From an uncultured Poribacteria bacterium (lineage in GTDB: Bacteria > Poribacteria > WGA-4E > WGA-3G): a stretch of DNA of 64,000 nt. The notes beneath the pieces were generated by a model. That model saw only the letters and a list, made by a program, of their open reading frames with translations, made no database searches and was not told where the DNA came from. Below are positions 4,210 to 29,435 of the stretch, piece after piece. Position numbers and translations under genes: made by a program. The number at the start of each line of letters is the position of its first letter. The first letter of the stretch is position 1. The stretch spans positions 5,013,200 to 5,077,199 of the forward strand of contig OX639973.1 of NCBI GenBank assembly GCA_951828385.1. The letters are read 5' to 3'.

Positions 4210-4473
4210 TTATTCAAAATACGCTGCGTTGATGTCTGTGTAATCTTCCCACTCTTCTGGAACCTCATCCTCTATAAAGATCGCCTCAACCGGACACGCC
4301 GGTTCACATACAGCTCAATCGATGCATTCTTCGGGATCAATATAGAGCTGATCCACCTCTTCAAATGCATCAGCTGCATTGGTCGGATGCGGGTGAATGC
4401 AATCTACAGGACACACGTCAACGCATGCGCTGTCTTTTACGTCAATACAGGGTTCGCAAATTACATAAGTCAT
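4210..4473 (-). CDS. Ferredoxin copy with in-frame TGA at a cluster cysteine (possible selenoprotein, otherwise pseudogene)
   Basis: This is a second copy of the 87-residue ferredoxin at 4559-4822, with the same start context (GGAG site, then ATG at 4473) and the same final residues (NAAYFE) before TAA at 4210-4212. The only interruption is TGA at 4315-4317, codon 53. That is the second cysteine of the CxxCxxCxxxCP motif, TGT in the sister copy. The frame stays open for 34 codons beyond it and keeps the other three motif cysteines. Starting 16 bases after the TGA is a 5-base loop CGTGT on a perfect 6-bp stem. The features fit bacterial UGA decoding as selenocysteine; a recent nonsense mutation is the plain alternative. 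UGA is an ordinary stop elsewhere in the window. No sel genes are visible here. Confidence 0.6.
4288..4304 (-). promoter_or_regulatory. Candidate bacterial SECIS-like hairpin
   Basis: In the mRNA sense, AACCGG (4304-4299) and CCGGTT (4293-4288) form a perfect 6-bp stem around the loop CGTGT. The loop starts 17 bases after the TGA and has G at its second position; both features are within published bacterial SECIS limits as I know them. The intact sister copy has the same stem but loop AATGT, without an early G. The short stem leaves this uncertain. Confidence 0.4.
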
Positions 4474-4558
4474 CTCATTTATCTCCGTGTTATGTGTTTT
4501 TTGATCGGTTGGCACACCAATGCCAAATACCGGTATTCGCGTGCCAACCCGTTGTTAT

Positions 4559-4822
4559 TTATTCAAAATATGCTGCGTTGATGTCTATGAAATCTTCCCA
4601 TTCTTCAGGGACCTCATCCTCTATAAAGATCGCCTCAACCGGACATTCCGGTTCACATACACCACAATCGATGCACTCTTCGGGATCAATGTAGAGTTGA
4701 TTAAACTCTTCAAATTCGCCCGCTGCGTCAGTCGGATGTGGATGGATACAATCCACGGGGCAGACATCAACACAGGCACTATCTTTTACATCGATGCAGG
4801 GTTCGCAAATTACGTACGTCAT
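4559..4822 (-). CDS. 7Fe/8Fe-type ferredoxin, intact copy
   Basis: An 87-residue low-potential electron carrier, cytoplasmic. The N-terminal half has a variant cluster site with cysteines at 6, 9, 17, 21 and 25 (ACVDVCPVDC). The C-terminal half has the canonical CIDCGVCEPECPVEAIF with cysteines at 50, 53, 56 and 60. The tail EVPEEW..(F/Y)..IN...FE is typical of FdxA-like proteins. The start at 4822 follows an AGGAGA site. It precedes the TGA-containing copy by 85 bases and follows the unknown gene at 4913 by 90 bases, so all are probably one transcript. It may pass electrons to or from the redoxin proteins of the same cluster; that partnership is inferred. Confidence 0.93.
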   Translation of the reverse strand: MTYVICEPCIDVKDSACVDVCPVDCIHPHPTDAAGEFEEFNQLYIDPEECIDCGVCEPECPVEAIFIEDEVPEEWEDFIDINAAYFE

Positions 4823-4912
4823 TTTTTTCTCCTTTTTGTGTATTTTACTAAGGCAAGTTCTCCAATACTGAATCTCAGACGTTGGGATCTTGCCAATTGG
4901 GTTCGTTTTGTT

Positions 4913-5656
4913 TCAAAGTATCGGAAGTGCAGTATTCACACCAGCAGAATGCCAATGGACTTCAGGATTTTGTACATCATTTGAATACGAATAGTTCCCT
5001 TGCACATAGTGGATCCCTACCATAATCTCTAAACGATAGGTGAGTTCCTTCGCCTCAGCGATATCTACCTCATCTTCGGCGTTCTTCTGCAGTTCAAAGC
5101 CTTTATGGAGCAATTTTACCTGCAATCCGTGTCCTTCTAAAGCAGACGCAAGACCATTGGCTAATGCTTCGTACTGTGAAAACGGGATTTCAGCACTGAT
5201 CTCTTCCCGCCACAGACCAAAACCGTTATGAAGCAGCGAAACATCTAATCCCTCTTTTTCTAACATCGCTTCCAGTTCTACCATATCGGCACACCCATAA
5301 GCTACACCTTCATTTGCCAAAACTTTCAATCTAAAACCGTTGTCAACCACGGTCAAAGGCAGGGATTGTTCCGCTACTAAGGATTTCAAAATCTCCTTGA
5401 TTTCCGGAACACGGTATGTCTCTAAGGCAAGAATCGTTATCGCTTTCTCTATGTTGGAAGCCGTTTGTCCAGTATAAATAGAATGGCTCTTACCACATCC
5501 CATCCATTGATCCACTACTTTTTCCACTCTCGATTTTGTCGATGTATCCCATGCTCCGTTATTTACTAATTGTGGACCGCTATTAGAAGCGCGGAGGGGG
5601 AGTTCGAGTTCAGTAATCAAAACGTCTAATAGGTCTTTGACATCATTTGGACGCAT
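4913..5656 (-). CDS. Unknown protein with repeated GF-x-L units, paralogue B
   Basis: I do not recognise a named family. The 247-residue protein has no signal peptide or membrane segment. It has tandem units of roughly 50-60 residues, each ending in a hydrophobic stretch plus xxGFxL: VDNGFRL, LLHNGFGL, LLHKGFEL. The N-terminal VKDLLDVLITELELPL resembles a later segment IKEILKSLVAEQSLPL. The gene at 5703 encodes a paralogue with the same plan. The start at 5656 has a strong AAGGAG site. It lies between the ECF sigma gene and the ferredoxins, all on one strand with gaps under 100 bases, so a role in the same redox or stress response is plausible but unproven. Confidence 0.8.
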   Translation of the reverse strand: MRPNDVKDLLDVLITELELPLRASNSGPQLVNNGAWDTSTKSRVEKVVDQWMGCGKSHSIYTGQTASNIEKAITILALETYRVPEIKEILKSLVAEQSLPLTVVDNGFRLKVLANEGVAYGCADMVELEAMLEKEGLDVSLLHNGFGLWREEISAEIPFSQYEALANGLASALEGHGLQVKLLHKGFELQKNAEDEVDIAEAKELTYRLEIMVGIHYVQGNYSYSNDVQNPEVHWHSAGVNTALPIL

Positions 5657-5702
5657 GAGTTTTCTCCTTTTCTTGAATTAGATATTCTGTCCAATTTTCG
5701 GT

Positions 5703-6410
5703 TCAGCGTCTCGGAAACCGCCACAGAGAGACACAAATACTCGCACTCGTCCAGCTCGTTTCCGAAGCATCATCACGGTTCCCGTATTCATAAGCATTCA
5801 GCACATAGTTGATGCCGAGGGTTATATCTATCTGTTCTGCAATCTCTTTGACCTGTGAGAGCGGCATCTCGGCTTCCGCCTCCTTTTCGAGTTGGAAACC
5901 GCGATGGAACAGTTTTGTTTTCAATCTGTTCACCTTTAACCAAGCCTCAAACTGATGGGCTACTGCCTCAAGTTCCGATAGTTCTACCGCCGTTCCGCCC
6001 CATTTCTCTAATCTAAATCCACCGTGAAGAATTTTAACAGGGTAACCCGTCGTATCGTCCTCTGAGAGTGTAATCAACCGGAAACCGCAATCGGTGAAAC
6101 GGATAGGCAGCCCCTGTTCCCCTATGACGGATTCAAGGAATGCTTCAACTGCTGAGGCTTCCAACAATTCCTTTACCGGTGAATCGGCATCAGTTTTGAC
6201 ATAGAACTCCATAATCTCCGGTCGTCCCGGTGGAAGAGCGTGGATTTTACTGTTCTTATTCCATTGGGTGATAACATCCTTAATCCGCGCCTCTGTCGTG
6301 GAATGCTGTGCCTCTAAATCCTGGGAGGGTGCTATATCAATAACATCAATCGGTAGACATTCCTCCGCAATTAAGGTCTTTAGCAATTCCTTGACCTCTA
6401 TCGGTGTCAT
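5703..6410 (-). CDS. Unknown protein with repeated GF-x-L units, paralogue A
   Basis: A 235-residue soluble protein of unrecognised family, paralogous to the gene 46 bases downstream. Its repeats end in TDCGFRL, LHGGFRL and FHRGFQL, and the start VKELLKTLIAEECLPI matches the N-terminus of the paralogue. The C-terminal segments also align: ITLGINYVLNAYEYGN here and IMVGIHYVQGNYSYSN there. The start at 6410 has an AAGGAGA site 10 bases upstream. It follows the ECF sigma gene by 67 bases. Tandem duplication is the simple explanation for the pair. Function is unknown; binding or sensing through the repeats is only a guess. Confidence 0.8.
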   Translation of the reverse strand: MTPIEVKELLKTLIAEECLPIDVIDIAPSQDLEAQHSTTEARIKDVITQWNKNSKIHALPPGRPEIMEFYVKTDADSPVKELLEASAVEAFLESVIGEQGLPIRFTDCGFRLITLSEDDTTGYPVKILHGGFRLEKWGGTAVELSELEAVAHQFEAWLKVNRLKTKLFHRGFQLEKEAEAEMPLSQVKEIAEQIDITLGINYVLNAYEYGNRDDASETSWTSASICVSLWRFPRR

Positions 6411-6477
6411 GTTGGACTCTCCTTTTGTGAATTAAGAATGCAAATCAGCAAAAAAGGTTACATCGGCTATGCAATTT

Positions 6478-7077
6478 CTAATCTTTGTCCCGAAATATAT
6501 GATCAAACTCGCCAGGATATTCCGATTTCATCCAAGCAACTAACTTCTGTTTTGCCCGATACAACCGCACCTTCGTCGCCGATGAACTAATGTCTAAAGT
6601 TTTGGCAATTTCCTCAAGCGTCATGTTCTCAAGCCGCAATTCAAACGCACGCTGTTCTGATTCTGGCAGCCGCTGTGCTAAAGCACGGACGATTTCTAAT
6701 TGCTCCTCAGCAATTATCGATTCCACAGGCGAGCGATGCTCAGGTGCTATCGTGTAGGTTTCAAAGATTTCATCGACAGGATCCGTCTCAATACTTCTCC
6801 GGTTCTCTCTGATGTGTGTCGCAATCAGTTGCTTGGCGATACTAAACATCCAACTCGAAAACTTTTTGCGATCCCGAAGCGTTCCGAGGTGTTTGTGCAC
6901 TCTGATAAACGTCTCTTGCATCAAGTCTTGCGCGGTTTCCCAGCTCCCAACGCGTCTATAGAAAAAGTTGAGAAGCGACATCTCATAACGATGATAAAGG
7001 ATTTCAAATGCACCCTCATTCTCGTCGTCTAAACTTTGATGCACCAGTTCCTCGTCGCGTGATTCATCCATTGCCAT
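6478..7077 (-). CDS. ECF-type RNA polymerase sigma factor
   Basis: A 199-residue sigma-70 family protein with only regions 2 and 4, as in ECF factors. Region 2 spans about residues 20-90 (AFEILYHRYEMSLLNFFYRRVG, DLMQETFIRVHKHL, FSSWMFSIAKQL). Region 4 spans about 130-185 and includes the helix-turn-helix MTLEEIAKTLDISSSATKVRLYRAKQ. The gene is 23 bases after a TPR-redoxin gene and heads two unknown genes and two ferredoxins. No anti-sigma gene with a membrane segment is adjacent, so regulation may come from a redox-sensing neighbour or from transcription level. It probably directs transcription of this cluster, among other genes; that is inferred from position. Confidence 0.93.
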   Translation of the reverse strand: MAMDESRDEELVHQSLDDENEGAFEILYHRYEMSLLNFFYRRVGSWETAQDLMQETFIRVHKHLGTLRDRKKFSSWMFSIAKQLIATHIRENRRSIETDPVDEIFETYTIAPEHRSPVESIIAEEQLEIVRALAQRLPESEQRAFELRLENMTLEEIAKTLDISSSATKVRLYRAKQKLVAWMKSEYPGEFDHIFRDKD

Positions 7078-13393: not shown

Positions 13394-13513
13394 ATCATCT
13401 TGTAGGAGCGAGTTGTGCTCGCGATTGCTATAGGCTTAATTTTGTAGGAGCGAGCTGTGCTCGCGATTGCCATCTGCGTCATCTTGTAGGAGCGAGCTGA
13501 GCTCGCGATCACC
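13394..13513. repeat. Three-copy tandem hairpin repeat, TAGGAGCGAG type
   Basis: Three units of TGTAGGAGCGAG(C/T)TG(T/A)GCTCGCGA separated by about 20 bases. Each folds as GCGAG against CTCGC. They stand at the start of the long gene-free block that runs to 14913. Confidence 0.75.
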
Positions 13514-13562
13514 TTAGACAGGTGCATAAGGTTTTTAACACGCCAGAAATAAAAGTGCGGCC

Positions 13563-13922
13563 CTGTAGCATAGGCTGTTAGCCTGTGTCCTGTAGCATAG
13601 GAAACCGTTAGTCTCCTGTGTCCTGTAGCATAGGAAACCGTTAGCCTGTGGCACGTATCCCTTGTAGCATAGGCTGTTAGCCTGTATCCTGTAGCATAGG
13701 AAACCGTTAGTCTCCTGTGTCCTGTAGCATAGGAAACTGTTAGCCTGTGGCACGTATCCCTTGTAGCATAGGCTGTTAGCCTGTGTCCTGTAGCATAGGA
13801 AACTGTTAGCCTGTGGCACGTATCCCTTGTAGCATAGGCTGTTAGCCTGTGTCCTGTAGCATAGGAAACCGTTAGCCTGTGGCACGTATCCCTTGTAGCA
13901 TAGGCTGTTAGCCTGTGGCACG
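13563..13922. repeat. Array of 11 TGTAGCATA hairpin units
   Basis: Eleven units all begin TGTAGCATAGG. Three types recur in a loose higher-order order: one with stem GGCT-gtt-AGCC, one with GGAAAC/GTCTCC, and one ending in CTGTGGCACGTATCCC. Open frames across the array are low-complexity products of the repeat, not genes. The units are spaced 27-39 bases apart with no unique spacers, so it is not a CRISPR. Confidence 0.85.
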
Positions 13923-14063
13923 TATTTCCCAATCTGCGAAAATCCGTGATTTGCGGCGTACGCGCCTGCCCCTTGATGACGGCGGATAAAGGGGAGTGTT
14001 TTTGCTGGAGTGTTTTTTGCGACCTGCATTCAGGCAACAATTGACAAAATATTTACACACCCC

Positions 14064-19006: not shown

Positions 19007-22000
19007 ATGGAGAACCTTATGAAAAAACTAAATCTCAAGCCTACACACAAACCGATACGAGACTACTACGAGGCGTTAGAACAATACGCTCAACATAATA
19101 TCACACACGAAGGCGCGGTCAGTAATCCTTTTGCCTTCTTACTTGCTACCTGTGCAAAAAAGGTAGGTGTCATGCTTGAGCCGCAACACGCTATGCGCAG
19201 CCCAAAAGGAAATCGCATCGTCATTGATGGAGCAATAATCGACCAATACAGACTCCCAATCGCCTACTGGGAAGCGAAGGACATGGATGACGACCTCCGA
19301 AAAGCAATTCAAGAGAAACGCGACAAAGGCTACCCGTTCAATAACATCCTATTTCAAAACCCCGAGCGTGTCATCTTATATCAGAACGAAGAGGTAGCAC
19401 TGGACACAGACATCACCGATCCCGAAAACCTTGTTGAAGTGCTCCAACGTCTCTTTTCATATTCAGGCATCACTTTTAGCGATTGGTATGATGCTGTTGA
19501 TAAATTCAATGAACGGATTCCAGCACTCGCAGCCAAGTTGAAAGAACTCGTCGAGCAGGAGCACAAAACGAACACCCAATTCAAGAAGGCATTCACCAGT
19601 TTCTACCAGACCTGTCGTACCTCGATAAATCCGGATCTCTCACAGGCTGCCGTTGAAGAGATGCTCATCCAGCATATACTCACTGAACGTATCTTCCGCA
19701 CAGTTTTTGAAAGGTCAGACTTTACAAGCCGAAACATCATCGCCACTGAAATTGAAAAGGTCAGTAAAGCACTCATGCAACACTCGGTGAGTCGCGACGA
19801 CTTTCTTAAACCCTTAAACCCGTTCTATACCGCTATTGAAAACGCTGCTACTCATTGTAAAGATTTCTCCGAAAAACAACACTTCCTCAACACCGTTTAT
19901 GAAAAATTTTTTCAAGAGTATTCTGAGGATGAGGCAGACACCCACGGTATTGTCTACACCCCCCAACCGATTGTCGATTTTATGGTGAATAGTGTTGAAT
20001 ATCTCCTAAAAACCGAGTTCAACCGATCTCTGTCGGATATCGGAGTGCATATTATAGACCCGTTTGTCGGCACCGGCAATTTCATCGTCCGTATTATGCA
20101 AGACATCCAAAAAATGGCACTGGAGGGTAAATATCGGCACGAACTGCATTGTAACGAAGTACTCTTACTCCCTTACTACATTGCCAATCTGAATATTGAA
20201 CAAGAGTTTTTGAATCATACAAAGAAATATCTGCCCTTTGAGGGAATAGTGTTCGCTGATACCTTTGAGTTGTTTGATCAATCCCAAGAAGAACTCTTTA
20301 CCGAGGAAAACACAAAACGCGTGGAACAGCAAAAAGCAAAGGACATGTTTGTTGTTATCGGCAATCCACCATACAATGCAGGGCAAGAAAGCGAAAACGA
20401 CAATAACAAAAACCGTCCATACCCAGCACTTGACAAACAGATAAAGGATACGTATGTGAAGGATTCCAAAGCGCAGCTCAAATATAACACGTATGACCCA
20501 TTTGTGAGAGCGTTTAGTTGGGCATCAAAGCGAATTGGGAACTCCGGTATTGTTGCGTTCATAACAAACAACAATTTTATTAAGGGACTGGCGTTTGATG
20601 GAATGCGCAAACATCTTGCTGAGGAATTCAACGCACTGTATATGCTTAATTTAGGGGGGAACATCAATAAAAGGCAGCCAGCAGGCTCCAATGTATTTGA
20701 CATTAAAATCGGTGTGAGTATAGCATTGCTCGTAAGGACAGGAGAACCTATTGATTCTTCATGTATATTTTACAACAATAAAACAGAACTATCGAGTAAG
20801 GAACAGACATTCCATTTCCTTAAAACGCATGAAAACGTAGGCAACGTCACATGGCAAGAGATTCAGCCTGATAAAAAGCATACTTGGATCACTGAAGGAC
20901 TCCACGCCGATTTTGATACTCTCATCCCGATAGGAACTAAAGAGGCGAAAGACGGAAAAGGCACTGCAGAAACCACAGAGGGTGTGATTTTCAAAAACTT
21001 CAGCCTCGGTGTGTCAACCAATCGAGATTTCTGGGTTTACAACTTCAATCAAGACGCACTCCGCGATAATGTTCAACGCATGTTGGAAACTTACACTACA
21101 GAAGTGGATCGCTGGAGACGTCAGGTTATCGAATGGAAACATGGAAATGCTCCCGAACCTCAAGTTGATGACTTTGTTTTATCTGATGCCACCAAGATAA
21201 AATGGAGCCGAGACTTAAAAAAGAAAAAGTTGATGCAAGGAAAAATTACTGAGTATGCTAACCACAAGATAAGGACCTCTCTCTACCGTCCGTTCACAAG
21301 GACCAATCTGTTTCTGGACGAAGTTCTAGTCGACAGTCCTGGACAGTTTCATACTATACTGCCGATCCTCGAAACAGAAACGGAAAATCAAGTAATTTGT
21401 CTGACAGATAAGGGATCCGAAAAGCCTTTTATGATCCTTATGAGTAATCAACTCACCGATTTACATGTTGTGGGTTCAGGTTGTGGTGCTCAATGCTTTC
21501 CCTTCTATACCTATAGTAAGGATGGTAAAATTCGTCACGAAAACATCACTGACTGGGCTTTAAAAAAGTTTCAGAACAATTATGGTGACGACAGCATAAG
21601 CAAATGGGACATTTTCTACTATAATTACGGCATCCTACACCATCCGGATTATCGAGAGAAGTATCGGGAAGATCTCAAGCTTAGCATGCCACGTATCCCT
21701 TTCGCCGACGATTTCTGGGCATTTGCGAAAGCTGGAAAGCAGCTAGCGGATCTCCATATCAATTATGAGTCCGCTCCAAAATACACAGGACTGACGCTCA
21801 AGGAAAAACCCAATATGCCCTTGGATTTGCGCGTTGAGCAGATGAAACTGTCTAAAGACAAAACGCGGATTCAATACAACGATTTTCTATCTATTGAGGA
21901 TATTCCCGTTGAGGCATATAACTATAGGTTGGGAACTCGATCAGCGTTAGAGTGGATAATCGACCAGTACAAAATCAAGGTGGATAAAGACACTAAAAAG

Positions 22001-22150
22001 CATAAAGGAAGTTATATTGTCAAAGACCCAAACCGAGTAGCGGAGCCGCGGTACATTGTAGACTTAATAGCACGTGTCATCACAGTAAGCCTTGAGACAA
22101 TGAAGATTATCAAAAATTTACCCGCATTATATCCCGTTGATGAGGACTAA
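19007..22150 (+). CDS. Restriction-modification fusion: Mrr-like nuclease plus N6-adenine methyltransferase (type ISP/IIG-like)
   Basis: A 1047-residue protein. Residues 1-110 look like a PD-(D/E)xK nuclease (VIDGAIIDQYRLPIAYWEAKD near 75-93). Residues about 320-560 are an N6-adenine methyltransferase: motif I DPFVGTGNFIVR near 352 and the catalytic NPPYNAG near 452. The remaining part, with IKWSRDLKKKK, LYRPF and the closing DLIARVITVSLET, resembles the target-recognition region of type ISP enzymes. There is no internal helicase, unlike full type ISP enzymes; the separate SNF2 protein at 14914 could supply one. ATG at 19007 follows GGAGGAAAG. It should cut unmodified invading DNA and methylate the host; specificity cannot be read. 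Confidence 0.85.
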   Translation: MENLMKKLNLKPTHKPIRDYYEALEQYAQHNITHEGAVSNPFAFLLATCAKKVGVMLEPQHAMRSPKGNRIVIDGAIIDQYRLPIAYWEAKDMDDDLRKAIQEKRDKGYPFNNILFQNPERVILYQNEEVALDTDITDPENLVEVLQRLFSYSGITFSDWYDAVDKFNERIPALAAKLKELVEQEHKTNTQFKKAFTSFYQTCRTSINPDLSQAAVEEMLIQHILTERIFRTVFERSDFTSRNIIATEIEKVSKALMQHSVSRDDFLKPLNPFYTAIENAATHCKDFSEKQHFLNTVYEKFFQEYSEDEADTHGIVYTPQPIVDFMVNSVEYLLKTEFNRSLSDIGVHIIDPFVGTGNFIVRIMQDIQKMALEGKYRHELHCNEVLLLPYYIANLNIEQEFLNHTKKYLPFEGIVFADTFELFDQSQEELFTEENTKRVEQQKAKDMFVVIGNPPYNAGQESENDNNKNRPYPALDKQIKDTYVKDSKAQLKYNTYDPFVRAFSWASKRIGNSGIVAFITNNNFIKGLAFDGMRKHLAEEFNALYMLNLGGNINKRQPAGSNVFDIKIGVSIALLVRTGEPIDSSCIFYNNKTELSSKEQTFHFLKTHENVGNVTWQEIQPDKKHTWITEGLHADFDTLIPIGTKEAKDGKGTAETTEGVIFKNFSLGVSTNRDFWVYNFNQDALRDNVQRMLETYTTEVDRWRRQVIEWKHGNAPEPQVDDFVLSDATKIKWSRDLKKKKLMQGKITEYANHKIRTSLYRPFTRTNLFLDEVLVDSPGQFHTILPILETETENQVICLTDKGSEKPFMILMSNQLTDLHVVGSGCGAQCFPFYTYSKDGKIRHENITDWALKKFQNNYGDDSISKWDIFYYNYGILHHPDYREKYREDLKLSMPRIPFADDFWAFAKAGKQLADLHINYESAPKYTGLTLKEKPNMPLDLRVEQMKLSKDKTRIQYNDFLSIEDIPVEAYNYRLGTRSALEWIIDQYKIKVDKDTKKHKGSYIVKDPNRVAEPRYIVDLIARVITVSLETMKIIKNLPALYPVDED

Positions 22151-22269
22151 GCGAAAAAGGCCTGTAATTTCCAAAAAGAGCGACCAGGATTCCTACTTAT
22201 CCCGATTTACAACTCTTACCCAGAAGTGCAGGAAACTCAGCCAGAATTCGATATTGAGGAGTCACAGTC

Positions 22270-22692
22270 ATGAATAAAACAATTTCATTAGACGACCTGC
22301 CACGTCAGGTTGAAAACCTACTACGGGCAACTTGGGAAGCGGATGAGAGTCTTGTGCTTGAACAAAACGGAAAGCCTGTAGCTGCTATCGTTCCAATGGA
22401 TGAGTATCGCAAATTACATCCAGATGAAAATGCCGCCGCTTACGAACTCCCGGTTCATTTACTTCAGGCTTATCACGGTTTACTTGATAAGAAGTTCTCT
22501 ACGGGTCTAACTCCCGAAGAGGAAGTTGAACTGACACAATTAGACGAGCAACTCAACGAAGCAGAAGCAGCGCAGCCGCTTATACAATCCATGCAAAAAC
22601 GCTCCGCCGCGCGGCACGAAAACTGGATGCAGCGGTTTGAGAAAGTCATGGCTAAACTACGCAGCTTGACGAATCTGACTTCTCAACCGTAG
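22270..22692 (+). CDS. Phd/YefM-type antitoxin-like protein
   Basis: A 140-residue protein whose first 60 residues follow the Phd/YefM plan: an N-terminal beta-helix-beta DNA-binding region (ISLDDLPRQVENLL) and the NGKPVAAIVPMDEYRKL signature. The charged helical C-terminus (LTPEEEVELTQLDEQLNEAEAAQ) would bind a toxin in a standard pair. No toxin gene (Doc, RelE/YoeB) lies next to it; the DUF499 ATPase gene starts 22 bases later. It may instead regulate the island or be an orphan. The 119 bases before it hold no supported gene. Confidence 0.7.
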   Translation: MNKTISLDDLPRQVENLLRATWEADESLVLEQNGKPVAAIVPMDEYRKLHPDENAAAYELPVHLLQAYHGLLDKKFSTGLTPEEEVELTQLDEQLNEAEAAQPLIQSMQKRSAARHENWMQRFEKVMAKLRSLTNLTSQP

Positions 22693-22713
22693 CACACTTT
22701 TTGGAGAAAACTG

Positions 22714-24381
22714 ATGCCGCTTACACCCTGGAGAGAAATTGTCACCCCTCACCGCGACATTGCGACAGGGCGTTATCACCAAGCGGAATTCGCTGCCAAC
22801 CTCGGTGAAGTTATCGCAGGCAATGCCGATACGGAATACCAAGACCCGATAGAATTTTTCGATCGAACCTACCTCACAGCGGGTATGCAACGACTTCTCG
22901 CTACCGCTGTTAAGCAGATAACAGGGAAAGACGGGGAACCGGTTGTCCAACTAAAAACCGCATTCGGTGGTGGAAAAACGCACAGCATGTTAGCGTTATA
23001 TCACCTGCTTCGTGGGGAAGCGGATGCCACACAGATGGAAGGCGCGGAACAGATTCTCAATACCGCAGAAGTTAACGAACTCCCAACGGCTCGTTTCGCT
23101 GTAATTGTAGGAACGGCTCTCAATCCAGCCCGCACGCAAAAAGTAAACGGCATTACAACCCGGACGCTTTGGGGAAACATTGCCGCACAACTCGGTGGAC
23201 AAGACGGATATGCAATCATAAAAACCGCTGACAAAAAGAGTGTTGCCCCCGGCGCAGATGACCTCACTACACTCCTCAACGAATTCGGTCCCGCAATCAT
23301 TCTTATAGACGAATTAGTCGCGTATACCCGTAACATATACAATGTCAATGGCTTGCCAGCCGGTTCCTTTGACGCGAACCTAACCTTTGTGCAGGCCTTG
23401 ACAGAAGCAGTCAAAAATGCAGAACAGAGTCAACTGGTCGCTTCAATCCCCGAATCCGACATCGAAATCGGCGGCAAGGCAGGACAAGAAGCATTAGCAC
23501 GCATTCAACACACTATCGGTAGGCTTGAAGGTATTTGGAGACCCGTTGATGCAGATGAAGGATTTGAAATTGTGCGGCGGCGGTTATTCTCGCCCGTCAA
23601 AGATCAAACCGCTCACGATGCAGTCTGCCGAGCGTTCACCCAGTTATACGACGAAAATCCTTCAGACTTTCCAGTTGAATGCCGTGATGCCCCGTATCTC
23701 GATCGGCTCCGTCGAGCGTATCCGATCCACCCTGAACTGTTTGATAGACTCTACGACGACTGGTCACCCCTTGAGAACTTCCAGAAAACTCGGGGTGTAC
23801 TGCGCTTTATGGCAGCCGTTATCCATCACCTCTGGATAAACGAAGATCGCGCCCCACTCATTCTGCCCAGCTCTATACCACTCGATTCACCGCATGTGCG
23901 AGAGGAACTCCTGCGCTACCTGCCGGAAAATTGGAACGCCGTTGTCGATAAAGACGTAGATGGCAACCGTTCTGAGCCACGCGCGATTGACGAAGCCAAC
24001 ACACGCTTTGGTGAGATATCCGCGGCGCGACGTGTGGCACGCACAATCTTCATGGGAAGCGCACCACATGGGAGTGAGCAAGCAGTGCGCGGTCTTGAAG
24101 AAATGCGAATTCGTCTCGGGACCGTCCAACTCGATGAGCACGTTTCTGTGTTCAACGATGCGACCAAACGTTTGACAGATCGACTCACGCACCTTTACAC
24201 CCGCGCCCAACGCTACTGGTACGACACGCACCCGAACCTCCGCAGAACAATGGAAGACCGGGCCGCTAAGTTAGAACCAGAGCTCGTAGAAACAGAGATT
24301 GTCCGCCGATTGAAGTGCCACCCTTTATTTAGACCACAATTTAGCAAATTTAAGAGAAGGTTTGCTGTTGAAATTCTATAG
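22714..24381 (+). pseudogene. DUF499 (COG1483-type) AAA+ ATPase, truncated by an IS3-family remnant
   Basis: The 555-residue frame matches the N-terminal half of DUF499 ATPases, which normally exceed 900 residues. Walker A AFGGGKTHS is near residue 84, Walker B IILIDELVAY near 196, and the RAYPIHPELFDRLYDDWS segment near 338 is characteristic. After about residue 530 the sequence enters DNA that belongs, on the opposite strand, to a transposase C-terminus, and the frame ends there. DUF499 proteins are predicted defence ATPases that accompany adenine methylases and SNF2 helicases, matching the genes upstream. The missing half probably leaves it inactive. Confidence 0.75.
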
Positions 24382-24514
24382 GTGTCAAATACCCTAACGC
24401 CGAATGTGGGCGTTTCTGATTATACACCTGTGTGATAAAATGCCCGATGTGATCTCTCGCCTCGGTGATGTTTTGATAGTCATTGATGTAAACTTCTTCC
24501 TCTTTGAGCGTGCG
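24350..24514 (-). pseudogene. IS3-family transposase (OrfB) C-terminal fragment
   Basis: Read on the minus strand, the frame gives RTLKEEEVYINDYQNI...HIGHFITQVYNQKRPHSALGYLTPIEFQQ and ends with TAA. This is the standard end of an IS3-group integrase-core protein, including the RPHSALGYLTP block. Upstream of R the frame hits a stop within ten codons, so only about 54 residues survive. It marks the break that truncated the DUF499 gene. An inverted repeat GAGAATATC/GATATTCTC follows at 24609-24633. Confidence 0.85.
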
Positions 24515-24692
24515 TGTGTGGCAGATTATACACTAAACTGCCACAAACACCCTCTTACTGATGGCTGGTAGCCGAGGGCTGACCTCCGACCGCTATCCTA
24601 CGCCGGACGAGAATATCTCTGAGCGATATTCTCAAAAAATACCTTTCCAATCGAAATTATTTGGTTAGTCCCATATGCTACTGCGCGATAAT

Positions 24693-25475
24693 TTACGAAG
24701 GTAAAGAGGTGTTATTATCCAGATATCGTCTGATATTTCCGTCGCTTTTTTTAATGTCAATGAAACACGCATCACACACATCTTGGAAACGGGTCAGCAC
24801 TTTGCGACTCGTAGCCTTCTCATCCTTGACAATTCCTACCGAACTGAAAGATAGACCCCACTCTTTGAATTGGTACAGCGAGATTGTAGCATCACGCGTT
24901 TTATTATCATTGGCAAGAGCATACACAAAAAGAGGCTCCGGCATCCCATTAATTAGACAATCTACTTTATAATTCGCTTGCGGATCACGATCGCTATCGT
25001 GCCATCCAAACACCATACGCGTCGTGTTCACCTTTTCATGTAAGAGTTCATGGAAATCTTCCATAAATGTGGATTGGACTCGTTCCCTTGACAAATATGA
25101 CACGTCCGTTATCTTGAGAAGAGCTTGAACAAAGTCGTATAGCGCTTCACCGTAATGCACATCCGATACCTCAAGTATTAATTCTCCACTACGATCTTCA
25201 ACTTCAAACATAGAAAGTGCTTTAGAGATAAGTTTCCAGCGTGTACCACTATAAAGCAGTTTCTCATCAATATCGTAGGCGAGGTGCCTGTAGGTATGCG
25301 ATTCGTCGGAGAGCAGCCACCGTTCACTTTCTTTCTTCAGGACAATAACTAATTCATCACCATCCTCGAATTGGAAGGGCGTTAATACCCGGAAACGGTC
25401 TTTACCATCTGCTGAAAGGCTGATCTGTGTTGAGACCTTATTAATAAAGTCTTGTTGTATGGTATTAGCAGACAT
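24693..25475 (-). CDS. DUF1828/DUF1829-type protein
   Basis: A 260-residue soluble protein. The N-terminal half (VLTPFQFEDGDELVIVLKKESERWLLSDESHTYRHLAYD) fits DUF1828, and the C-terminal half (YKVDCLINGMPEPLFVYALANDNKTRDATISLYQFK) fits DUF1829. These families are common in defence and mobile islands, and DUF1829 resembles nuclease-fold scaffolds, but no activity is established to my knowledge. It starts at 25475 after a GGGGGTG site, 12 bases after the stop of the gene at 25488, so the two form an operon. The family call is by recognition of the pattern only. Confidence 0.65.
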   Translation of the reverse strand: MSANTIQQDFINKVSTQISLSADGKDRFRVLTPFQFEDGDELVIVLKKESERWLLSDESHTYRHLAYDIDEKLLYSGTRWKLISKALSMFEVEDRSGELILEVSDVHYGEALYDFVQALLKITDVSYLSRERVQSTFMEDFHELLHEKVNTTRMVFGWHDSDRDPQANYKVDCLINGMPEPLFVYALANDNKTRDATISLYQFKEWGLSFSSVGIVKDEKATSRKVLTRFQDVCDACFIDIKKSDGNIRRYLDNNTSLPS

Positions 25476-25487
25476 TGCTCACACCCC

Positions 25488-25958
25488 CTAAAAAAGTACC
25501 TGTTGCGGCGGTTCTAAAAAATTTGCATCTTCGATTAAGCAGCGAAGGGCACCCTCGTAATTGTTATAACGCTGGGTTTGTACTGCGTAGGTTTCTTCCT
25601 TTGATCCTCTCCGCTGATACCGCTCTGTCGCGTAATGAATATGAAACCCTTCAATTCTTTCTTTTTCAATTTGGTTTCTGTGCCTACCATGCCGTCCATT
25701 GTAGCGGCGGAGTTTAAAATCTTGGTTTGATCTGGGAGGAATAACTACCAAAATGACTGAAAAGTCTAAAGGCATAGCGTCGTCTGGTCTGACAATAATT
25801 CGGAACTCATTCCCATTATCACCTATGACAGTTAATTCTCCCTTCTCTTTATTCGGTCTAATCAATTTACTATACCAATCATCCGGTAAAACCTTGCGTT
25901 CCTGCATAAACCCTTCTATTTCCTGATCTGAATATCTGATTTTTTGAGCGTTTACCAT
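25488..25958 (-). CDS. Unknown small protein upstream of the DUF1828-type gene
   Basis: A 156-residue protein from the ATG at 25958; a TTG further upstream would add 16 hydrophobic residues of doubtful value. It opens KIRYSDQEIEGFMQERKVLPDDWYSKL, has a central beta-rich part (LTVIGDNGNEFRIIVR, LDFSVILVVIPP), and ends with a basic RRYNGRHGRHRNQ...FHIHYATERYQ segment. I recall small proteins of this kind preceding DUF1828 genes, but cannot name the family safely. The short gap suggests co-expression as a two-gene unit, possibly toxin-antitoxin-like or defensive. Confidence 0.6.
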   Translation of the reverse strand: MVNAQKIRYSDQEIEGFMQERKVLPDDWYSKLIRPNKEKGELTVIGDNGNEFRIIVRPDDAMPLDFSVILVVIPPRSNQDFKLRRYNGRHGRHRNQIEKERIEGFHIHYATERYQRRGSKEETYAVQTQRYNNYEGALRCLIEDANFLEPPQQVLF

Positions 25959-26203
25959 AAAAATTAGTCCAATACATACAATACCATACATAATGTGGAA
26001 TGGCAAATAAAAATTGAGTATAAATCAGGAAAGCAGCGGATATAACCTACTTCCCGTGCATAATACGACCTTTAAGAAAATGCTGTTACAACAACTGCCT
26101 CTCACCAAAGATGTTGAATTTACGGGCATTCGGGCGTAAAGCCCAACGCTTTAGCTTTGGGATATAGGTTTCCCGCTAAAGGTGTAATCCCTGTGAAATA
26201 AAT

Positions 26204-26330: not shown

Positions 26331-27440
26331 GTGAAAACCTACAAATATAAGATTGGCGATCAATCTAATACAATCCGCATTGGCAACTTGCTTGACGATA
26401 TGTGGCAAGTGCATGCATATTTTCATAAGTGGCAAGACCAAAGATACAAAGACGGCTTGCCGTATGCCAACTACGCTGCAATGTGTCAACATGCAAAAGA
26501 TTTGAAACGAACCACACATCCACATTGGAAGTCGTTGCCAAGCCAAGCGATCCAAGCAGAGTTGGAACGCATTGATAATGCGTATCAAAGGTTCTTTAAT
26601 AAACTTGGGGGTAAACCCCATATCAAACCTCGCCATAAGTTTAAGTCTATCACTCTTAAACAAACTGGGTATAAACTCACTAACAACCGTATTACACTCA
26701 CATTTCGCAAGTGGGATAAAGGTAAATGGCGATTTGATAAAGTGCCATATACGTTTCATAAACACCGCCAGTGGCAGGGAACTATCAGTCGTATCACCAT
26801 CAAACGAGACGCTTGCGGGGACTATTGGCTCTGCCTAACAACAACGTACACAGATTTTAGACCGCTGCCAGCAACAGGTGAAAGCGTTGGGGCAGACTTC
26901 GGTATGAAAGACGCATTTTTGACGTTGAACACGGGTGAGAAAATACAACACCCACAACCCCTGAAATCTAACTTGAACAAACTTCGGTCTCTCAACAAAG
27001 AACTTTCTCGTAAAAAGAAAGGTTCTAACGGTTGGTGGTGGTGTGTCAGGCAACTCGCACGTCTGTATCGGAAAATCAGCAACCAACGCAAAGATTTTCA
27101 CTGGCAACTATCAAGCAAACTCTGTAAGAAGTTTGATACGATTATCCTTGAAACGTTGAACCTTGAGGGTATGAAACGCTTGTGGGGACGTAAAGTCTCT
27201 GACCTTGGCTTCTACCAGTTTGTTGAGATAGTGAAATATAAGTGCCAAAAACATAAGCGTGAGTTGCGTCAAGTCGGACAATGGACGGCTACAACGAAAC
27301 CTTGTAGCGATTGCGGTTTTCATAATGAAAGCCTAACTCTGAATGATAGACAGTGGATATGTCCTGAATGTGGTTCCGACCACGATAGAGACATAAACGC
27401 TGCGATAAACATTTTGCGGGCAGGGATAGCCGTCACTTGA
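26331..27440 (+). CDS. tnpB: TnpB, RNA-guided nuclease of IS605-type transposon
   Basis: A 369-residue TnpB, a compact RuvC nuclease of the family ancestral to Cas12, guided by an RNA from the element's right end. Catalytic motifs appear complete: RuvC-I aspartate in GADFGMKDAF near residue 189, RuvC-II glutamate in IILETLNLEGM near 271, and RuvC-III aspartate in DHDRDINAAINI near 351. The zinc ribbon is present as CSDCG and CPECG. The start is GTG at 26331. Family members cut DNA matching the guide next to a short target motif and help keep the element in place. With a perfect promoter and no visible lesion it is probably active. Confidence 0.93.
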   Translation: MKTYKYKIGDQSNTIRIGNLLDDMWQVHAYFHKWQDQRYKDGLPYANYAAMCQHAKDLKRTTHPHWKSLPSQAIQAELERIDNAYQRFFNKLGGKPHIKPRHKFKSITLKQTGYKLTNNRITLTFRKWDKGKWRFDKVPYTFHKHRQWQGTISRITIKRDACGDYWLCLTTTYTDFRPLPATGESVGADFGMKDAFLTLNTGEKIQHPQPLKSNLNKLRSLNKELSRKKKGSNGWWWCVRQLARLYRKISNQRKDFHWQLSSKLCKKFDTIILETLNLEGMKRLWGRKVSDLGFYQFVEIVKYKCQKHKRELRQVGQWTATTKPCSDCGFHNESLTLNDRQWICPECGSDHDRDINAAINILRAGIAVT

Positions 27441-27580
27441 CGATATGCCTTGTATCCACTTCTTTCAGGATACAGGGGAAATGCCCGTCGGTGGAGCGCA
27501 GATAAGACGGTGGACTCTTTGAGAAAACCGCAGTCGCTATGAAACCGAAGCCCACGCCTTTAGGCGTTGGGTGCTATCAC
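27441..27580 (+). ncRNA. Candidate omegaRNA (right-end RNA) of the TnpB element
   Basis: In this family the guide RNA comes from the 3' end of tnpB through the right end, with the guide immediately beyond the element. The 140 bases here hold GTATCC/GGATAC pairing near 27452-27475 and the terminal GCCCACGCC/GGCGTTGGG hairpin, ending GCTATCAC. The guide would then be the flank from about 27581. Boundaries are inferred. Confidence 0.5.
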
Positions 27581-28008
27581 TAACGCCAGTCTTTTATCAC
27601 TCAGCTACGATGGGTAGTAAGCAGAAGCAAAATAGGCTGATTTGTGACTGTGCTGCCCGAACGGGTTAACGAATATATCACGAAAATAGAAAGATTACAA
27701 ATGCTTCCACGTTATTATGGAGACTAAAAACATTGTGCATTCAGACAAAAAATAAATTTGCATTTCAAAATAAAGTATGTTATCATATATAAACAAGTTA
27801 TCTATAAACAGGTTATCATACATAATGTAGCGAACACCCCCTGAAAACCACGAGCTATAGACAGTCTAAATTAACGAACGTTAACCCATAAATTAGCATT
27901 TTATGAACAACCCAAAATCGAACCGCATTCAAAAAACGCCACCGAGCCAATCAAACACTACACGCGTGGCACTTCAGAAAGACACTGACAAAAATTAAAA
28001 TTACCCAA

Positions 28009-28292
28009 TTGTTCACGAAAATTACGGAAATCCAGAATTCAACAACGCCATCAACCCTTGTCCTAACTAAGTTTATGCCCTTTACAGAGCAGAAAAAAGT
28101 ATCATGAACAATTTCATGAACATTAATGAACACCGTACCAAAGAATTCATCACGCACCGCATCGATGACCGCCGCAAACCCGTGTATCAAGCGGGTTTAG
28201 AATCCATAATATCATGAACACCAAAATTGAATAAATACCCAATGTTCGCGAATGTTCATGAAATTCCGTGCCATGTTCACGAAATGTTCATA
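28009..28292. repeat. Cluster of GTTCATGAAC-like sites (operators or iterons)
   Basis: At least eight sites of the form TGTTC(A/G)(T/C)GAA or its complement: 28009, 28101, 28112, 28123, 28210, 28243, 28253, 28272 and 28284, with one more half-site at 27903. All lie in the gene-free AT-rich region 27580-28643. A CAAACCCG/CGGGTTT hairpin (28175-28199) interrupts the cluster. Regular half-palindromes at such density suggest a DNA-binding regulator or replication-type iterons. Confidence 0.6.
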
Positions 28293-28500
28293 ATTTACGC
28301 CTTGAAAACCCATTGTCCACAAAACAACAAAAAATTAACATATAGTTAACTTATATCATTTCTGTGAATAAATCTCTCTTTTGTAGAATAAACTTTTAGT
28401 TTGTTCCGCATCGCCAGACATTTCATGAAAGCCGGTAATGCAATATCATTATCTACAAATGGTATTATTAGTCTGTCAACATTCAAATGAAAGGTAAACC

Positions 28501-28596: not shown

Positions 28597-28643
28597 TCTG
28601 TCAGTTTATATGTGACAAAGCATTATAATGTTTGGAGGAAACC

Positions 28644-29435
28644 GTGCTGAAACGAAAAGACCTCAAATTCAGACTCGCAAATCGACACAAAGAATTCGCT
28701 ATCATCCAGTTTGCGCAATTCATGAAACCGACCGATGTCGTCACCGCTGTCATGGAACAATTCAAAACCGAACTCGCCGCCGACATAGAAAAATACGGCG
28801 CAGGCGAAATCCGACGCTACCTCTCACACAACTTCTGGACACTCAACCCCAAAAACGGGAAGATGCCCGAAAAATTCAAGGAACTCTTTGAGACACACAA
28901 ACAGTTATACCTCAGTACCTACACCGATAGCTACCTCCGCCACCCCCGAAACGTCGTCAGAGAACTTGACAACCTCTATGAAAAATGTACGGAACAACTT
29001 CAAAACGCCGAGCCAGACAAAACACGACAACTCGTGCCGACAATGCTCAAAATTATCCAGACTGTCAGAAACACGATCGACGCAATCCCATTCGACCTCG
29101 AAAATGAGGAGGGCGAGCTTGAAAAAGTACAAGCCGCAATGGTACTCAATTCGGAAATGGCAATCCCCGATCCGCTTGAGGAGGAAGATGAACAAAAACT
29201 CAAAGAACTGCTTGACACGGATGCGCCTTTTGAAAAAATCCGCAACTTCATTGAATATCTCAGATGCAAAAATCACGACATTTTTTCTGTCATGCCCGTG
29301 CGCGATGATGAACAGGGAAAGCAAGTATTCCTTAGAGGCAGACGCATCGAACTCATAGGATTTGGGCATCCAGAACCTGAAGAAAGACAACCCAATACCG
29401 CTGTCGTCGGTAGCATAACGGAGCACATCGACTAA
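28644..29435 (+). CDS. Unknown protein, possibly DUF2280-like N-terminus
   Basis: A 263-residue cytoplasmic, highly charged helical protein. The N-terminal stretch (HKEFAIIQFAQFMKPTDVVTAVMEQF) loosely recalls the DUF2280 / phage terminase small-subunit helix-turn-helix; I would not rely on it. Residues 190-215 are very acidic (LEEEDEQKLKELLDTD). The start is GTG at 28644, supported by GGAGG at 28634-28638. The gene follows the cluster of palindromic sites and precedes, by 18 bases, a DUF1573 protein with which it is likely co-transcribed. Confidence 0.65.
   Translation: MLKRKDLKFRLANRHKEFAIIQFAQFMKPTDVVTAVMEQFKTELAADIEKYGAGEIRRYLSHNFWTLNPKNGKMPEKFKELFETHKQLYLSTYTDSYLRHPRNVVRELDNLYEKCTEQLQNAEPDKTRQLVPTMLKIIQTVRNTIDAIPFDLENEEGELEKVQAAMVLNSEMAIPDPLEEEDEQKLKELLDTDAPFEKIRNFIEYLRCKNHDIFSVMPVRDDEQGKQVFLRGRRIELIGFGHPEPEERQPNTAVVGSITEHID

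Follow-up and report, generated by a model that had tools for sequence, protein, structure and literature searches.

What is the role of a dense cluster of short repeated sites in a stretch of DNA that contains no gene? The question is raised by a 64-kb stretch of a poribacterial chromosome (64,000 nucleotides, hereafter the window), in which an earlier note reported about nine copies of TGTTC(A/G)(T/C)GAA between positions 28009 and 28292, and proposed that they were either operators for a regulator of the 28644 operon, or iterons of a plasmid- or phage-type origin. The GTTCATGAAC-like sites form the heart of a conserved stretch of non-coding DNA, of which this sponge-symbiont genome has six copies and which is located before a bacterial gene related to a phage DNA-packaging protein; many copies adjoin anti-phage defence genes. 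This element is not a replication origin; it probably carries binding sites of the protein encoded at 28644.

A dispersed element with directional sites

The window contains five exact matches to TGTTCRYGAA, at 28010, 28113 (reverse strand), 28243, 28253 and 28274, four sites with one mismatch, at 27900, 28101, 28123 and 28211 (all reverse), and a weaker site at 28284. The cluster is therefore real and the count of about nine was right, as was the description of a GC hairpin between the sites (AACCCG...CGGGTT, around 28175-28199). The whole 6.66-Mb chromosome has 96 exact sites, of which 31 are grouped in six clusters of less than 0.5 kb each, and all six are copies of one element. The other 65 are background (a control with the reversed pattern gives 59): the motif is not equally common elsewhere in the genome. 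LexA-, parS- and OmpR-type sites were considered as candidates; a classical regulon is disfavoured, single sites being at background level.

The extent first given to the feature has to be revised, since the element is larger (27758-28351) and present in several copies. The 1-kb gene-free region is accounted for by two inserted dispersed repeats which, in the window, separate the element from the 28644 gene. The features are the following (coordinates in the window, strand where there is one):

27758-28351: whole element copy, non-coding
27758-27786, forward: predicted promoter into the core (-35 TTGCAT, 17-bp spacer, extended -10 TGTTATCAT), shared by most copies
27870-27885: left terminal palindrome ATTAACGAACGTTAAC, left core boundary, near-invariant in 45 full copies
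27900-27909, reverse: site 1, of the TGTTCAYGAA type, 1.80 bits per column
28010-28019, forward: site 2, within CCAATTGTTCACGAAAATT, 1.79 bits per column
28101-28132, reverse: left block of three sites (28101-28110, 28113-28122, 28123-28132), starts 12 and 10 bp apart
28175-28199: GC hairpin AAACCCG...CGGGTTT, of the same kind as in paralogous leaders (AAACCC...TGGGTT)
28211-28220, reverse: extra site, unconserved in most copies
28243-28293, forward: right block of four sites (28243, 28253, 28274, 28284), starts 10, 21 and 10 bp apart
28333-28351: right terminal palindrome AATTAACATATAGTTAACT, right core boundary
28350-28465: dispersed repeat A, MITE-like, an insertion that parts the core from the gene in the window genome
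28466-28617: dispersed repeat B, MITE-like, beside repeat A
28644-29435, forward: gene of a small-terminase-like family related to DUF2280, GTG start, RBS at 28634-28639; abuts the element in relatives

From left to right, a copy consists of the promoter, a variable stretch (usually 45-130 bp) and a core of about 0.48 kb (about 485 bp) which has TTAAC/GTTAA palindromes at its ends and 8-10 directional sites. In the core, a reverse site is followed about 110 bp further on by a forward site, then by three reverse sites, the GC hairpin and three or four forward sites, so that two opposed blocks flank the hairpin, with the 10/21/10-bp spacing on the forward side. Several copies lack the first site of the right block, the deletion being exactly 10 bp long. 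Information content is 1.71 bits in the site columns against 1.09 elsewhere. The core of subfamily 1 begins with ATTAACRAACGTTAAC and finishes with TTAAC-N5-GTTAA. In both subfamilies, most copies have the same promoter at a distance of 90-240 bp before the core; its consensus, TTGAY-N14-ATGTTATCATA, has 90 matches in the genome and 5 in the control, and it looks like a sigma70-type promoter.

A blastn search with the intergenic region retrieves the other five copies of the genome at 73-77% identity. The element occurs in 21 of the 59 genomes of the family, all from one genus of Candidatus Poribacteria, and a profile search over the fetched loci gave about 50 copies, 45 of them full-length, in two subfamilies. 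A scan with the exact pattern also returned Candidatus Poribacteria, with few other matches (Sulfitobacter, Prochlorococcus and single MAGs). Repeats A and B are present elsewhere in the window genome and absent from the same locus in two related genomes (G005 and G009).

Directly left of the element in the window genome, an IS605-type TnpB gene, whose right end is palindromic, occupies 26331-27600, and tangled direct repeats made of TGTAGCATAGGCTGTTAGCCTGTGTCC- and TGTAGGAGCGAG-type units lie at 13400-13930. A second, commoner element family has the same promoter and TGTTACAC / GTGTAACA sites (L164, L165, L167, L169 and L170 in the window genome, and L188-L217). It has matches in all 38 genomes of the genus, some of them promoter-only and, from reading the sequence, it is often located upstream of nuo genes, a Crp/Fnr-like regulator gene or a ComF-like gene.

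The 28644 gene and its paralogues

The window protein matches DUF2280 (PF10045) weakly (14.4 bits, E 0.042), one paralogue narrowly exceeds the gathering score (24.3 bits vs 24) and others come close; the phrog_546 profile gives the same pattern. Two contigs encode a homologue: L218, an 80-kb phage-like contig of genome G065, and L223, from IMG/VR. On both, it overlaps the start of a large terminase gene (phrog_38), with a major head protein nearby. L218 (G065:C3) and L223 are two related phage contigs with a small/large terminase pair; the G065 contig has two copies of the homologue (at 6.0 and at 72.9 kb), as would result from a redundant circular end. In an Acinetobacter prophage, a DUF2280 protein likewise adjoins the phage terminase large subunit (PMC7760358). 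The position beside a large terminase and the relation to DUF2280 and phrog_546 thus identify the 28644 family, by homology, as small-terminase-like. The hint of a phage in the earlier reading, unsupported as regards an origin, holds in this other sense.

No packaging genes were found beside the window gene, large terminase and capsid genes being absent; the protein is therefore called TerS-like and not a working terminase. Its neighbours are a DUF1573 protein and, from reading the sequence, a predicted membrane protein and a SecA-like protein. The AlphaFold model of the 28644 protein is poor (pLDDT 59), and a fold search of the PDB was uninformative (E >= 0.7). Scans of viral contigs with the family profile and with a chromosomal paralogue returned no relative, and only the phage-type query matched, on one contig. 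In the phage collection, the phage-type query gave weak matches (27%) in Salinibacter phages and the chromosomal paralogue none. No paper on chromosomal arrays associated with DUF2280 was found in the literature searched.

The core lies 9-24 bp upstream of a 28644-family gene in 16 genomes, the distance being larger in the window. Copies of the element also occur in six genomes that lack a close relative of the 28644 gene, and internal stops interrupt the gene in G009 and in one copy of G053. Distant homologues of the protein (24-33% identity) occur across the family, including another genus. The proposal that the sites are operators tied to the 28644 operon fits, since the element abuts the gene in 15 other genomes and the leaders of the paralogues match. 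As for the regulator, the most likely candidate is the 28644 product itself, and the array is also found in copies without the gene.

In the leaders of paralogous genes, a promoter of the same kind is followed by a first operator, by an AAACCC...TGGGTT hairpin and, beside the RBS, by a pair of operators. Their palindromes are specific to each paralogue: TGTTACAC, TGTTATA, GTTACC, GATACC, CCGTACC, GTACGT or TGTCAC. In 12 of 14 paralogue leaders, the inverted repeat beside the RBS or start codon is better than in shuffled sequences (p <= 0.01). In the 28644 lineage, the sites are further upstream, and a TTAAC/GTTAA palindrome occupies the place beside the RBS. The two operators of a leader usually vary in concert, as sites read by a single protein should. 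When the eight site types are mapped on a tree of 29 proteins, they require the minimum of 7 changes, a value that none of 200 shuffles reaches; this match falls short of a proof of binding because leader and gene are inherited together.

In genome G041, a leader with GTACGT sites is present in about a dozen near-identical copies (L252, L256, L259, L261, L262 and L264-L270), followed by the small-terminase-like gene, which is intact or, in most cases, truncated; six of the copies have a common junction near codon 24. Leaders have therefore spread without the whole gene. At L219 (genome G048, 4352-6621), the gene next after a small-terminase-like gene of the TGTTACAC type reads like a DarT-type toxin.

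Copies without the gene and selection on the sites

Gene-less copies are found in 11 of the 15 genomes that have the gene, and in 6 of 23 that do not. At 29 of 33 loci they point in the same direction as the gene to the right. Many of their neighbours are defence genes. The window copy has on its left a defence island (19007-26006) with a type IIG restriction enzyme, an HmaC-like ATPase, which covers only the first 535 of 941 profile positions, and a PDC-M24B candidate. Other copies have restriction enzymes, PtuA-like ATPase and HEC-01A-type proteins as neighbours and, from reading the sequence, TIR and FRG domains and a DUF1156/DUF499 pair. With PADLOC, 53 proteins near the copies matched 275 families and 50 far ones matched 71, which indicates defence enrichment only roughly, given that the far proteins are shorter and that both sets contain orthologues.

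Copies of subfamily 2 appear to lie upstream of nuoA, leucyl-tRNA synthetase and Hen1/Pnkp genes. At four gene-less loci of this subfamily (L096, L110, L111 and L113), the next gene has, by eye, an apparent promoter of its own downstream of the element. The element may thus not be the leader of these four genes, and its control of them is doubtful.

In five sets of orthologous gene-less copies, the site columns diverge by 0.9-3.0% vs 8.4-12.1% for the other columns of the core. The values are 7.8% vs 29.2% in the set at the secA locus, and 9.8% vs 33.9% in subfamily 2. The deficit is significant throughout (permutation p <= 0.003), and the divergence of the sites is 3.5-9 times lower than that of the remaining core, gene-less copies included. 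For some copies in one set (L124, L088, L092), the nearest promoter of this kind is 2.8-3.7 kb away, with genes in between. Thus, the sites themselves are kept at each place, even where no promoter is adjacent. This conservation within loci argues against a purely decaying repeat and against a role as RNA only.

Readings of the array and comparison with known systems

The reading that we prefer, and to which we give about an even chance, is that the cluster is an autoregulatory array, to which a host-encoded small-terminase-like protein would bind with transcriptional control as the result. Transcription would begin at the conserved extended -10 promoter and cross the array into the 28644 gene. 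The protein would bind the TGTTCAYGAA sites cooperatively, as suggested by their spacing (10, 12 and 21 bp) and by the opposed blocks around the hairpin, and would thereby control its own synthesis. At gene-less copies, binding would act on neighbouring units, many of which are defence genes. This reading is favoured by the linkage of core and gene, the matching leaders of the paralogues, the agreement of site types with the protein tree, the selection on the sites, the co-orientation with right-hand genes and the higher frequency of gene-less copies in genomes that have the gene. The genomes with copies and no close relative of the gene, the internal stops, the doubtful control of four genes, the weak DUF2280 match and the poor structure model speak against it. 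While the element, its copies and boundaries, the selection and the linkage are observed, the binding and its transcriptional outcome are what we infer.

Alternatively, the arrays could be pac-like sites where packaging starts: the host small terminase would recruit the large terminase of an infecting phage, and adjacent DNA, defence islands included, would be packaged and transferred. The relationship of the protein fits this idea, as do the arrays that adjoin the gene, the conserved gene-less arrays beside defence genes and the selection on sites where no promoter adjoins the core. There is a precedent in SaPIs, whose chromosomally encoded small terminases direct packaging from their own pac and from linked pseudo-pac sites, the latter being linked to particular genes (PMC6687093). 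However, the conserved promoter, the co-orientation of the right-hand genes and the operator pairs beside the RBS of the paralogues point to transcription; moreover, no leader of this kind precedes the phage small-terminase genes on L218 and L223, and a search for arrays near them found none. We consider pac-like sites unlikely. The larger scheme, in which host small terminases with matched arrays would steer the packaging motor of an infecting phage onto defence islands (transduction or diversion of packaging), with several paralogous specificities per genus, is rather improbable.

It is also unlikely that the element is just a mobile, non-autonomous repeat, functionless at most loci, whose sites look conserved only because the copies are recent. 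The copies are indeed dispersed, the core ends against unrelated sequence (or the end of an ORF, which meets the left palindrome in several copies), positions are lineage-specific, the G041 leaders have multiplied with truncated genes, several at one junction, and decayed remnants exist (L107, L118 and L119). Yet the divergence of the sites after separation is several-fold below that of the rest of the core in each orthologous set. Related palindromes are present at both ends, and inspection of the alignment by eye showed no target-site duplication. A search for empty sites found the orthologous genes elsewhere and no clean empty site, the intergenic DNA being too diverged for the junction to be placed.

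We find it quite improbable that the element is transcribed into a structured non-coding RNA of about 0.56 kb, with the opposed blocks as helix arms. The promoter reads in, fold z-scores range from -1.9 to -2.7 and one short helix has a covarying pair, but compensatory changes affect only 2 of 35 consensus pairs and a search of Rfam gave no credible match. One 10-mer is repeated 8-9 times in the fashion of protein sites, the left sites stay when a right site is lost as 10 bp, and conservation of the core sites extends to loci where no promoter adjoins. The RNA fold fits the inverted repeats, but covariation is almost absent.

Iterons of a replication origin, or a parS-like partition locus, are very improbable: despite the helically phased repeats, the AT-rich surroundings and the even spacing of the six chromosomal copies (coefficient of variation 0.20, p ~0.0009, post hoc), no initiator (as the earlier note had said) or ParA/ParB-like gene was recognised among the ORFs beside the element, which has several copies per chromosome at unrelated loci and is absent from 38 of 59 family genomes. 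The even spacing is treated as chance; the copies in genome G066 are not evenly spaced (p 0.18).

The element brings to light an orphan, host-encoded, small-terminase-like family linked to defined DNA arrays, with about eight protein/site pairs. If the protein is a regulator, a packaging protein would have been put to a new use, and defence genes would belong to its regulon; if the arrays mark packaging starts, they would explain the movement of defence islands in uncultured sponge symbionts.

The system resembles a phage TerS with a recognition site near its own gene, by its relation to DUF2280 and phrog_546 and by the short repeated sites beside the gene, whereas here a host gene has a leader with a promoter, no large terminase or capsid genes lie beside it, and there are extra arrays without a gene. 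The pac site of phage P1 has TGATCA hexamers clustered at either end of a stretch of about 160 bp. The present array has two groups as well, of three TGAACA and four TGTTCA, and sequence and protein family differ; it is a resemblance only. As in SaPIs and other PICIs, a chromosomal TerS-like protein has its own sites (predicted here), and none of the hallmarks of PICIs or phage satellites (integrase, att sites, excision, replication and capsid-redirecting genes) was recognised among the ORFs and family matches around the window copy. Lastly, the succession of promoter, tandem and opposed operators and gene, with operators that diverge between paralogues, is that of a repressor which controls its own gene through an array of operators in the leader, except that here the protein is TerS-like, the array extends over about 0.5 kb and whole leaders are dispersed.
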